This document shows, one piece after another, positions 7,531 to 24,376 of a DNA stretch of 64,000 nucleotides. The notes beneath the pieces are model-generated. The model saw only the letters and a program-made list of their open reading frames with translations. It was not told where the DNA came from and did not search any database. The stretch covers positions 420,818 through 484,817 of the forward strand of contig NZ_CP059209.1 of assembly GCF_014252075.1 (NCBI RefSeq). The letters are read 5' to 3'. Within the stretch, counting starts at the first letter, position 1; each line of letters starts with the position of its first letter. The stretch comes from Blattabacterium cuenoti. Its GTDB lineage: Bacteria > Bacteroidota > Bacteroidia > Flavobacteriales > Blattabacteriaceae. The translations under genes were made by a program, and so were the position numbers.

Positions 7531-7725
7531 AACGAAAGTTATTTTTAATATTGTTAAATAAGTATTTTTTTTTAAATTTCAAAAAAAACAAAAATAAGAT
7601 TTTCGCTTTAAAGGAAGTTAAATTACCCAATATAAAACATTTTGAAAAAACTTATTTGGCCTATAGATTTAGTTCTATTAAAAAAAGTAAATTCCACAAA
7701 CCAATATGCAAGGAAATATACTTAT

Positions 7726-7735
7726 AAAAAAAAAA
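7726..7735 (+). other. 10-A tract, first frameshift site in birA
   Basis: Ten consecutive A. Upstream BirA coding is in the frame of 7642; downstream coding (WIVIWALNQTQG) is in the frame reached by adding one A. A run of this length can cause RNA-polymerase slippage and is also error-prone in sequencing. Confidence 0.8.
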
Positions 7736-7928
7736 TTGGATAGTTATTTGGGCTCTGAATCAAACTCAAGGTATAGGATTTGAGAATAATTTATGGCATT
7801 CAGAAAAAGAAAAGAACTTAACTTTCAGTATCATTTTTAAACCTATAAATCCTTTTCCTATAAATAAAAAATATTTGATAAACATTATCACAAGTAATGG
7901 AATTCATAAAGCTTTATTAAACTATAAT

Positions 7929-7940
7929 AAAAAAAAAAAA
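7929..7940 (+). other. 12-A tract, second frameshift site in birA
   Basis: Twelve consecutive A just before the conserved KWPND motif. As in the first tract, one extra A joins the two coding frames. Without it the upstream frame reads KKKKFGLNGLTI and stops. Confidence 0.8.
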
Positions 7941-8407
7941 TTTGGATTAAATGGCCTAACGATATGATTTCATATAGTAAGAAAATAGGAGGAATTTTAA
8001 TAGAAAATAGTATTTTTCTAAAAAAAATTCATTCTTCTATTATTGGAATCGGTTTGAATGTACATCAAACTAAATTTGAAAAGGAATGGAATGCTACTTC
8101 TTTGAAAAAAATTTTCAATCTAAATTTTGAATTAGATAATCTATTTTATAACATTATATATTCTATTCAAAAAGAATATTTTCTTTTCACAATTCATGGG
8201 GAAAATTTTTCACGAAAATATTATATTAATCATCTTTATTTGAAAGATAAAATTTCTCTTTTTTATATTCACAAAATAAATGATTTTGTTAAAGGAATAA
8301 TACGATCTATAACAGATCAAGGGTTTCTAATAATTGAATTTAATAAGAAATTCTATTCTTTCTATCAAAAAGAAATCAAATTTATTGAATAATTTTTTTT
8401 ACATCTA

Positions 8408-11920: not shown

Positions 11921-11929
11921 CCAACCTAT

Positions 11930-12030
11930 GGAGCAAGTTCTACACAATCAGCTCCCTAAGAATCCTCCAGGGTGGGAACACAGCAAAGGTAATAAGGTTG
12001 TAGCGATGTGATGTAGTTTCAGCTTGCTCC
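11930..12030 (+). ncRNA. ffs: Signal recognition particle RNA (4.5S type)
   Basis: A 101-base RNA whose ends pair perfectly: GGAGCAAG (11930-11937) with CTTGCTCC (12023-12030). The next helix pairs CTACAC (11939-11944) with GTGATGTAG (12008-12016). The apex has the SRP domain IV layout: a CCAGG strand, a GTG-GGAA-CAC hairpin with a GGAA tetraloop at about 11971-11980, then AGCA on the 3' side of the symmetric loop. This RNA binds Ffh and targets nascent membrane proteins to SecYEG and YidC. It lies just upstream of clpX on the same strand. Confidence 0.85.
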
Positions 12031-12066
12031 TATATATATGTGAAAGATGGAATAGGAAAAAAATTT

Positions 12067-13271
12067 ATGGAAGACTTATTGAAATGTAATTTTTGTGGAA
12101 GAAAAAAAAATGATATTACTTTTCTTATATCGGGAATCAGCGGACACATATGTAATTTTTGTATAGAAAAAACTTATTCCATAATTCATAGAGATTTTTT
12201 GTCTAAAAAAATAGAAAAAAAAAAAATGAGTTTATACAAATAAAAAAACCTAAAGAGATCAAGTTTTTTTTAGATAAATATGTTGTGGGACAAAATGAAG
12301 CAAAAAAAATCATTTCCGTTGCTGTATATAATCATTATAAAAGAATACATCATAATTTTTACAAATCAGAAAATCAAGATGTAGAAATAGAAAAATCTAA
12401 CATATTATTAATTGGAAAAACAGGAACAGGAAAAACTTTATTAGCGAAAACCATATCAAAACTTTTAAAAGTTCCTTTTGCTATAGCTGACGCTACTACT
12501 TTAACTGAAGCTGGATATGTAGGAGAGGATGTTGAATCAATATTGTCTAGACTTTTACAATCAGTAAATTATGATATAAATTCTGCTGAAAAAGGAATTA
12601 TTTTTCTAGATGAAATTGATAAAATATCTAGAAAAAGTAATAATCCTTCTATTACTAGAGATGTTTCTGGAGAAGGAGTGCAACAAGCGTTGCTTAAAAT
12701 ATTAGAAGGATCAGTCATCAATGTCCCTCCACAAGGAGGAAGAAAACATCCAGATCAAAAAATGATACAAATTAATACTGAAAACATATTATTTATAGCT
12801 GGAGGAACATTTGATGGAATAGAAAAAATTGTTTCTGATAGAATAGAACAAATTTCAATAGGTTTTTTAACTCAAGAGAAAAGAGAAAAAAATACCTATA
12901 AAAATTATTTAAAAAATATTATTTCTACAGATTTAAAAAGTTTTGGATTAATACCTGAATTGATAGGGAGGTTTCCTGTTACCACTTATTTAAATCCATT
13001 GAATAAAAAAATGTTGAAAAAAATTTTGTTGGACCCCAAAAATTCCTTAATCAAGCAATATCAAAAATTATTTGATATGGATAATATATCTATGAATATA
13101 ACAGATGAAGCTTTAGATATCATAGTAGATAAAACTTTTCAAGTAGGTATTGGAGCTAGAGGCTTACGAACTTTTTGTGAAAAAATATTTTTGGATTATA
13201 TGTATGATGTAGAAAACACTCATTCCGTTTTGAATATAGATAAAGATATTGTAATGAATAAGCTAATATAA
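12067..13271 (+). CDS. clpX: ClpX ATPase subunit, frame broken at a 12-A tract
   Basis: ClpX unfolds substrates for ClpP. Two frames make one full-length protein. The first carries the N-terminal C4 zinc domain (CNFCG and CNFC). It runs into twelve A at 12215-12226 and stops at 12241-12243. The second frame resumes with [18 protein letters not shown], the usual junction. It then has Walker A GKTGTGKT, the GYVGED pore loop, Walker [19 protein letters not shown] and the GIGARGLR sensor-2. One extra A joins them into about 400 residues, the normal ClpX length. I choose the ATG at 12067 ([13 protein letters not shown]) over a GTG at 12040 that sits 10 bases from the SRP RNA. Every motif is intact, so a functional gene rescued by slippage, or a base-call error, is more likely than decay. 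Confidence 0.88.
12215..12226 (+). other. 12-A tract, frameshift site in clpX
   Basis: Twelve A between the zinc domain and the AAA+ domain. The upstream frame terminates 15 bases after the run. Adding one A restores a continuous ClpX reading frame. The tract sits in the poorly conserved linker, so extra lysines would be tolerated. Confidence 0.85.
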
Positions 13272-22319: not shown

Positions 22320-23539
22320 AACAAAAATTTGGAATCATTGGATATGATTATGCTTTACATCGAGCTTTAGAAAAAACAGTGCAAGTGGCTCCTACTGATA
22401 TTTCTGTATTAGTTCTTGGAGAAAGTGGTGTAGGAAAAGAGTTTATTCCAAAAATTATTCATCAATTCTCTTCCAGAAAACATAATTCTTATATTGCAGT
22501 AAATTGTGGGGCTATTCCAGAAGGAACTATTGATAGTGAACTTTTTGGACATGAAAAAGGATCTTTCACAGGGGCTACAAGTATGCGAAAGGGTTATTTT
22601 GAAGGAGCTAATGGAGGGACTATATTTTTAGATGAAGTAGGAGAGCTTCCTCTGACTACACAAGTACGTCTTCTTAGGATTTTAGAATCAGGAGAATTCA
22701 TTAAAGTTGGTTCTTCTAAGATTCAAAAAACCGATATACGAATTGTTGCTGCTACTAATTTAAATATGATAGAATCTATACAAAGAGGAAAATTCAGAGA
22801 GGATTTATATTATCGTCTTAATACAGTACAAATTAATGTTCCTCCTTTGCGATTTCGTAAAAATGATATCAAATTTTTGTTCAAAAAATTCTCTAATGAT
22901 TTTTCTGAAAAGTATCATATGCCTCCGATTTTTCTTACTGAAGAATCTTTGAAATACTTAGAAAATTATTCTTGGCCAGGGAATATCAGACAATTAAAAA
23001 ATATTACAGAACAAATTTCTGTCGTGGAAAAAAAACGTGAAATTTCTATAGAAAAATTAAAAGAATATATTCCAGAAAATATTCCTTCAATATCATTTTC
23101 TCACAATGAAACTTTCTTTCAAGGATTTTCTAGGGAAAGAGATTTACTGTATAAAATTTTGTTTGATATAAAGAAAAATTTAAATGATTTGAAAAATATT
23201 ACTTTTCAATTGGTTAAAAATCATCCAAATCCAAGATTTATTAAAGATAATCAACAAATTATGGAAAAAGTTTTTGGAAAAATGATTTATAAGAGAGATG
23301 ATTCAATTTTTCAATTGGAAGATTCATCTAAACCTTCTTCTGAGGAAGATTTTGATTATGAAGAAATAGAAGAAGATTCATCAAAAAATGAATTTTCTTC
23401 TTTTTCTTTACAAAAAAAGGAAATAGAATTTATTAGAAAAACTTTAAAAAAAAATAATGGAAGAAGAAGGAAAACAGCAACGGAATTAGGAATTTCCGAA
23501 AGGACACTATATAGAAAAATTAAACAATATGGCTTGTAA
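22298..23539 (+). CDS. Sigma-54-dependent transcriptional activator, no receiver domain
   Basis: AAA+ bacterial enhancer-binding protein that opens sigma-54 promoters. The 413 residues start almost directly with the AAA+ domain: Walker A LGESGVGKE near 42-50, the sigma-54 contact loop GSFTGAT near 90 (GAFTGA family), Walker B TIFLDEVGEL and the arginine-finger region FREDLYYRLN. An acidic linker follows (about residues 340-370), then a Fis-type helix-turn-helix ending RRKTATELGISERTLYRKI. There is no N-terminal receiver, GAF or PAS domain, so its input is unclear. The miaB-activator-lptE-secG order is standard in Flavobacteria. It overlaps miaB by 22 bases and lptE by 11. sigma-54 itself (rpoN) is not in this window. 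Confidence 0.93.
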   Translation: MESIQNIKQKFGIIGYDYALHRALEKTVQVAPTDISVLVLGESGVGKEFIPKIIHQFSSRKHNSYIAVNCGAIPEGTIDSELFGHEKGSFTGATSMRKGYFEGANGGTIFLDEVGELPLTTQVRLLRILESGEFIKVGSSKIQKTDIRIVAATNLNMIESIQRGKFREDLYYRLNTVQINVPPLRFRKNDIKFLFKKFSNDFSEKYHMPPIFLTEESLKYLENYSWPGNIRQLKNITEQISVVEKKREISIEKLKEYIPENIPSISFSHNETFFQGFSRERDLLYKILFDIKKNLNDLKNITFQLVKNHPNPRFIKDNQQIMEKVFGKMIYKRDDSIFQLEDSSKPSSEEDFDYEEIEEDSSKNEFSSFSLQKKEIEFIRKTLKKNNGRRRKTATELGISERTLYRKIKQYGL

Positions 23540-24011
23540 TAAAATTATTTTTACTTTTATGTTTTTTGTTTTTACTAGTTGCTACCATCCTTCTATTTCT
23601 TCATTTTTTGATATAAAGAAAACGATAGAAATAGGAGAATTTTCAGAAAAAATAGATCTACCTAGAAGATCTATTGCTTTTGATTTTAGAAAAAATCTTG
23701 AAGAATATATTATGACACACAATCCTTCTAATTTAGTATTGAAAGATGGAGATGTTATTTTAGAAGGAAAATTTTTGGATTATATAATTATCTCAAATAT
23801 AAATAATCCAATAAGAAAAATTCAAGTAACGGCTCAAATATCTTATAAAGATAATTTTGAACCAGAGAAAAATTGGGAAAAATGTTTTATAATATCAGAA
23901 GATTTTTATTATAAAAAAGAACTTTTTTTAGAAAAACCCATTGATAAGATCATAGAAAAACTTACTATTCAAGTGTATCAAAAAATTTTTAATGAAAATA
24001 ATGATTGGTAA
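23529..24011 (+). CDS. lptE: LptE-like outer-membrane lipoprotein
   Basis: Probable LptE, the lipoprotein that plugs LptD and places LPS in the outer membrane. The 160-residue protein begins with a short basic-hydrophobic signal ending in the lipobox FTSC (Cys18). It keeps the family pattern of small beta segments (DGDVILEGKFLDYII) and ends QVYQKIFNENNDW, like flavobacterial LptE. Sequence conservation in this family is low; the assignment rests on the lipobox, the ending and the position between the sigma-54 activator and secG. It is processed by LspA, also in this window. Confidence 0.75.
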   Translation: MACNKIIFTFMFFVFTSCYHPSISSFFDIKKTIEIGEFSEKIDLPRRSIAFDFRKNLEEYIMTHNPSNLVLKDGDVILEGKFLDYIIISNINNPIRKIQVTAQISYKDNFEPEKNWEKCFIISEDFYYKKELFLEKPIDKIIEKLTIQVYQKIFNENNDW

Positions 24012-24257
24012 ATGGAAACAACACCTATAACCATATTTGGATTTCTTATTATTATAATGTGTCTTCTTCTTATATTGGTTATACTAATACAAAATCCTAA
24101 AAAAGAAAGTATTAATCAAACTTTTATGGAAAAAAATTTTAGATTTTTTGGAGTAAAAAGAACAAATACATTTCTAGAAAATTTTACTTGGTTTTTATCC
24201 ATTATTATATTCTTTTTAACTTTATTTTTCAATTTTTTCCTAAAATCAAAACATTAA
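24012..24257 (+). CDS. secG: Protein translocase subunit SecG
   Basis: Small subunit of the SecYEG translocon. The 81-residue protein has two membrane helices (about 7-26 and 60-77). Between them is the conserved loop: ILIQNPKKES in place of the usual QxxKGGG, then FFGVKRTNTFLENFTWFLS, which matches the family. The ATG directly abuts the lptE stop. It is the last gene of the miaB-activator-lptE-secG run. SecE (minus strand near 56.1 kb) completes part of the same complex. Confidence 0.88.
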   Translation: METTPITIFGFLIIIMCLLLILVILIQNPKKESINQTFMEKNFRFFGVKRTNTFLENFTWFLSIIIFFLTLFFNFFLKSKH

Positions 24258-24263
24258 AAATGT

Positions 24264-24278
24264 ATGTCATAATGACAT
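24264..24278. promoter_or_regulatory. Palindrome ATGTCATAATGACAT upstream of groES
   Basis: A perfect 15-base palindrome 42 bases before the start of a sigma-54-like promoter (24320) and 98 bases before the groES ATG. That is a plausible place for an enhancer-type activator site. It uses GTCAT/ATGAC units like the sites before dnaK and miaB, but in inverted order. It also lies 7 bases after the secG stop and could be a weak terminator. Confidence 0.4.
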
Positions 24279-24319
24279 TTAATATTGCTTAAATGAAAAA
24301 AATTCAAACATTTTTCATT

Positions 24320-24335
24320 TGGCATGTTTTTGGCT
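24320..24335 (+). promoter_or_regulatory. Candidate sigma-54 (-24/-12) promoter of groESL
   Basis: TGGCATGTTTTTGGCT matches the sigma-54 consensus TGGCAYGNNNNTTGCW at all fixed positions except one (TGGC for TTGC), with the exact GG-N10-GC spacing. Transcription would begin near 24346, about 31 bases before the groES ATG. The G/C positions stand out in this AT-rich spacer. The gene for a sigma-54 activator lies just upstream. Function is inferred, not shown. Confidence 0.5.
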
Positions 24336-24376
24336 TTGGACGTTTAGTATCGTAAACTTTAAAAATTATTTAAAAT

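Follow-up and report, generated by a model that had tools for sequence, protein, structure and literature searches.

Frameshifts maintained in insect symbionts

Frameshifts in poly(A) tracts of Buchnera and Blochmannia genes are rescued by polymerase slippage, as was reportedly shown by Tamas et al. in PNAS in 2008, and Wernegreen, Kauppinen and Degnan, writing in MBE in 2010, are said to have found ancient homopolymer frameshifts in Blochmannia that are maintained by selection. Eight frameshifted genes were described in Blochmannia vafer, with a frameshift in dnaX that is common to B. floridanus (PMC3017870). In aphid and ant symbionts poly(A) slippage corrects 12-50% of transcripts (PMC5009743).

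The biotin-protein ligase gene (birA) of Blattabacterium cuenoti resembles the Buchnera and Blochmannia cases in belonging to an AT-rich, reduced insect symbiont and in being a needed gene that is broken only at long A runs and is otherwise intact, such that slippage could restore the frame. It differs in that Buchnera and Blochmannia are Gammaproteobacteria whereas the host of this gene is a Bacteroidota symbiont of cockroaches, and in that slippage is here deduced from sequence. As with the ancient frameshifts of Blochmannia, the same break is present in several species and there is selection on the joined frame, although the gene affected is birA and in one genome a second tract of the same gene is also broken. 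With the B. vafer genes (PMC3017870) it has in common single-base indels in A tracts, no acceleration of rate and a break that is shared between species, but in B. vafer there is a single break per gene, and host and bacterial phylum differ. No report of a slippage-rescued frameshift in Blattabacterium was found in the literature searched. We regard birA as another case of the Buchnera and Blochmannia phenomenon, to which the double break adds a twist that is as yet unproven. The range of slippage-maintained frameshifts would thereby reach beyond gammaproteobacterial symbionts to one of the Bacteroidota; the break that is shared across species hits an enzyme required by the fatty-acid pathway, and the case carries a warning for annotation that such genes are not to be labelled pseudogenes.

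Structure of the birA locus

The window (the whole stretch of 64,000 nucleotides that was analysed) belongs to a genome of 636,273 bp in one contig, referred to below as G000. A preliminary description had reported a complete ligase split at two A tracts with its coding sense kept over three frames and with no other stop inside the segments, and this is confirmed at exact coordinates (Table 1). The coding sense passes from the frame of the start codon to the third frame and then to the second with a shift of -1 at each tract, both tracts being one A below the in-frame length. The indels lie only in long homopolymers and the gene is otherwise open; the joined segments encode 250 residues with zero internal stops and carry the STN, QTQGIG, KWPND and KIGGILIEN motifs. 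When read through, the product scores 120.3 bits against TIGR00121 (birA_ligase; cut-off 83.1) and aligns with solved biotin ligases (PDB) over most of its length. Its TTG start is conserved in 44 of the 49 Blattabacterium-type genomes (one per species) that formed the comparison set, which would fit low expression. The neighbours of birA are rsfS and yidC and it is alone on its strand, so that premature termination would be without effect on downstream genes.

Table 1. Coordinates in the window of birA, its frame breaks and clpX
Feature	Position	Strand	Remarks
birA, whole gene	7642..8392	+	three successive reading frames
birA segment 1	7642..7725	+	residues 1-28; begins with TTG, contains STN motif
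A10 tract, first frame break (-1)	7726..7735	+	exactly 10 A; A11 in intact orthologues; common to G028, G030, G036
TAG closing uncorrected first frame	7741..7743	+	ORF 7642..7743; shortly past A10
birA segment 2	7736..7928	+	QTQGIG region; third frame
A12 tract, second frame break (-1)	7929..7940	+	exactly 12 A; this genome only
TGA closing uncorrected second frame	7965..7967	+	ORF 7875..7967
birA segment 3	7941..8392	+	KWPND, KIGGILIEN, C-terminal part; stop TAA 8390-8392
clpX	12067..13271	+	-1 break at private A12 (12215-12226)

Biotin that is imported still requires a ligase for its attachment. In this analysis there was no match to bioB above cut-off, and the biotin pathway is reported to be absent from both partners of the symbiosis (PMC9603385), so biotin must be imported. 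birA is single-copy in all 49 species searched and is the sole gene for a biotin-attaching enzyme in this genome. An acceptor for a BirA of the ligase-only type is present: BCCP with its EAMKL biotinylation site is intact, together with AccC, in each of the four species that carry the A10 break.

Distribution of the breaks

Related genomes do, for the most part, keep birA intact, a point on which the preliminary description had asked for a check. The gene lies at the same place, full-length and in one frame, in 43 of the 49 genomes, so that the broken birA is no chance assembly of frames. The six exceptions are G034, G025 and the four species (G000, G028, G030 and G036) in which an identical TAT-A10-TTGGATA is accompanied by the frame change. 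The A10 break is common to several species without decay; the A12 break occurs in G000 alone.

Two further breaks were seen in the gene, both at other tracts. In G034 birA has a -1 break at an A12 about 160 nt into the gene (L066), and in G025 there is a +1 break at an A10 that lies some 36 residues short of the C-terminus (L057).

If the true lengths were A11 and A13, birA would simply be intact and the breaks would be errors of sequencing or assembly. The private nature of the A12 is in keeping with this, as is the genus-wide rise of breaks with tract length (about 0.2% at A9, roughly 15% at A12), which errors would also produce. At A10, however, four genomes agree on the length, and independent errors at one site are very unlikely; moreover, A11 is reported at this same tract, with an intact gene, in three other species (G042, G003 and G027). 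Other A10 and A11 coding tracts of the same genomes are in frame: within the homologous 64-68 kb regions of G028, G030 and G036 this holds for the other coding A/T runs of at least ten, A11 included, and the birA A10 is the sole broken run of that length in each. A genomic count of 11 A at the first tract, an outcome for which the preliminary description had allowed, is thus improbable, and we judge error to be a decidedly unlikely explanation of the locus. The A12 break of G000 could be a recent mutation, a rescued frameshift or a sequencing error; clpX in this genome is likewise broken at a private A12.

In a tree of ftsH and yidC, strong support (100/99) unites G000, G028 and G030, whose proteins are well separated. 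G036 clusters with G006 and G024 (100/98), two species in which the tract is interrupted and the frame kept. A flanking-gene tree in which the four A10 species were held together was borderline (p-AU 0.052). One loss with regain and two losses both fit the tree. Parsimony places the loss of one A, from a tract that was originally A11, in the common ancestor of G000, G028 and G030; the A10 of G036 would be either a second independent loss or the trace of a single deeper loss, after which G006 and G024 regained the base.

Selection on the joined frame

The preliminary description had proposed dN/dS of the joined frame in relatives as a check, and this was estimated with a codon model of the GY94 type with F3x4 frequencies (our own script) on 236 codons from nine species, tract codons being excluded. 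Purifying selection acts on the joined frame in the broken lineages. In the A10 branches omega is 0.227 against a background of 0.119, and omega = 1 can be rejected, the difference being 23.8 log units (lnL -3453.86 vs -3477.61). With G036 added omega is 0.209 and the rejection amounts to 32.5 log units (-3453.77 vs -3486.28), and for the G000 tip alone the values are 0.175 and 10.0 log units (-3453.48 vs -3463.46). Segments 2 and 3 give 0.25 and 0.19 respectively in the A10 branches, or 0.20 and 0.17 with G036. Simulated neutral evolution along branches of these lengths predicts 8-11 stops per sequence against the zero observed, and none of 2000 runs was free of stops. The notion of a long-dead birA, against which the preliminary description had argued, is refuted by these results (omega about 0.21-0.23 in the broken lineages), and where that description had named neutral decay in related strains as a refuting outcome, the A10 species show purifying selection.

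Could the inactivation instead be real but recent, birA being a young pseudogene? There are two breaks in one gene, and the A10 branches show a mild relaxation of selection (a one-omega model is worse by 3.4 log units), with no such relaxation seen in yidC or ftsH. The A10 break is nevertheless older than the divergence of G000, G028 and G030, whose proteins are far enough apart to count as well separated. Since that break birA has acquired no stop and no frameshift outside the tracts, its expected substrate is intact, and the stops, indels and omega near 1 that a pseudogene would show after its first lesion were not found. Recent inactivation is accordingly very unlikely for the gene as a whole; only in the G000 lineage, once the A12 had arisen, might it have taken place. 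Of the two alternatives offered in the preliminary description, slippage rescue is favoured at A10 by the sharing across species, the selection and the lack of decay, and very recent loss is refuted there; at A12 both remain compatible with the data, as does error.

Translation might also restart past A10, with a shortened BirA being sufficient. In-frame codons for this exist in G028 and G030 (GTG35 or ATG39), and constraint before the tract is weak: over the 27 codons preceding A10 none was detectable in the A10 branches, where omega is 0.78 and, with too few sites, not separable from 1. G036, by contrast, has no in-frame ATG, GTG or TTG after the tract, and the first usable codon of G000 is at residue 79 and would give a product without the active site, so that restart cannot explain selection in these two species. 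The STN motif binds biotin in known ligases; it is unchanged in all four A10 species, and a restart product would lack it. We consider restart extremely unlikely.

The uninterrupted state of the A10 was considered as a sign of selection for slipperiness and dropped. Of the conserved Lys codons some 70% read AAA throughout the four A10 species, which makes the conservation of the tract unremarkable, and chance yields it about one time in three.

Probable restoration of the frame during expression

Taken together, the sharing of A10 across species, the purifying selection, the single copy, the intact BCCP and the lack of a usable restart in two species predict, by comparison of genomes, that birA very probably works and that its frame is restored during expression. 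More specifically, we think it probable that the break is present in the DNA and that the working gene depends on polymerase slippage on the A10. RNA polymerase would slip on this tract and add an A to part of the transcripts, and the in-frame fraction of mRNA would be enough for full-length biotin-protein ligase to be made. In G000 the full-length fraction would drop further through the private A12, where a second A is missing, unless that tract is an error. The gene would have survived through a continued need for biotinylation of BCCP, for which little ligase may suffice. Transcription errors at A runs in Buchnera are mainly single-base insertions (PMC5574713), and slippage by RNA polymerase is preferred here since it is documented in insect symbionts and since an insertion would make up for the missing A. 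That study of A-run errors did not, however, find the restored frame in Buchnera (PMC5574713), which counts against rescue by slippage.

A different route would be for ribosomes to slip by -1 where the A run codes for lysine, thereby joining the frames on a faithful mRNA. Each of the three breaks in the window (birA A10 and A12, clpX A12) requires a -1 shift, and the run offers A AAA AAA, a classical slippery heptamer. In its slippery A run and -1 direction birA is like the programmed ribosomal frameshifting of E. coli dnaX, but it differs from dnaX in having no function for two products and no downstream stimulator that could be found: a folded RNA, stronger than chance as a programmed -1 cassette would require, was sought downstream of A10 and not found in the four species (z-scores -0.27 to -0.87). 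The precedent in insect symbionts is, furthermore, transcriptional. A ribosomal shift therefore seems rather unlikely, and by analogy the addition of A by RNA polymerase would be the likelier of the two at birA.

The preliminary description had pointed out that double slippage would yield little full-length protein, and this still stands. If the 12-50% correction held at both tracts, full-length birA mRNA in G000 would amount to roughly 1-25%. With its one substrate BirA is presumably needed in few copies, so that a low full-length yield may be tolerable. A bolder reading is that two successive slippages are needed per birA transcript and that ligase supply is set across the genus by changing A tracts, slippage acting as a low fixed dimmer and not as a tolerated accident. 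Four different birA tracts are broken among the 49 species; we hold this reading to be quite doubtful.

clpX and other frame breaks in the genus

With clpX the phenomenon recurs in a second gene of G000. The tract broken there is in frame elsewhere, as A13 in G030 and G042 and as A15 in G028. Purifying selection is strong on the portion of clpX that follows the tract, with an omega of 0.024 on the G000 branch.

A survey of 41 genes of a 40-kb region in the 49 genomes (1967 gene-genome pairs) revealed about 14 separate internal frame breaks, almost all of them in A runs at least nine long. Intact coding runs numbered 982 (A9), 331 (A10), 83 (A11) and 22 (A12), and broken ones 2, 6, 2-3 and 4 respectively. 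birA alone accounts for four break sites (the shared A10, the A12 of G000, the A12 of G034 and the A10 of G025) and looks unusually tolerant of frame breaks. An apparent bias towards -1 breaks (about nine against four at A runs) involves too few events to count.

Several of the remaining breaks may be noted individually. A putative dephospho-CoA kinase gene, named coaE from its sequence, has -1 breaks in G031 (L163) and G034 (L169), which belong to one clade; the breaks, at an A9 and an A10, lie near the same residue. On the opposite strand, the gene that comes downstream of clpX has +1 breaks in G041 and G046 (L180-L181, L188-L189), at an A9 in the former and at a run of nine G in the latter; such a run of G is odd in so AT-rich a genome and may be a sequencing error. 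In G026 (L156-L157, matching G042 22982-24343) there is a break beside an A13/A14, within an apparent local tandem duplication of about 100 bases. The stretch just upstream of clpX, 11924-12033 (+), matches Rfam RF04183 at 87.8 bits and is a gene for a small SRP RNA of Bacteroidales type.
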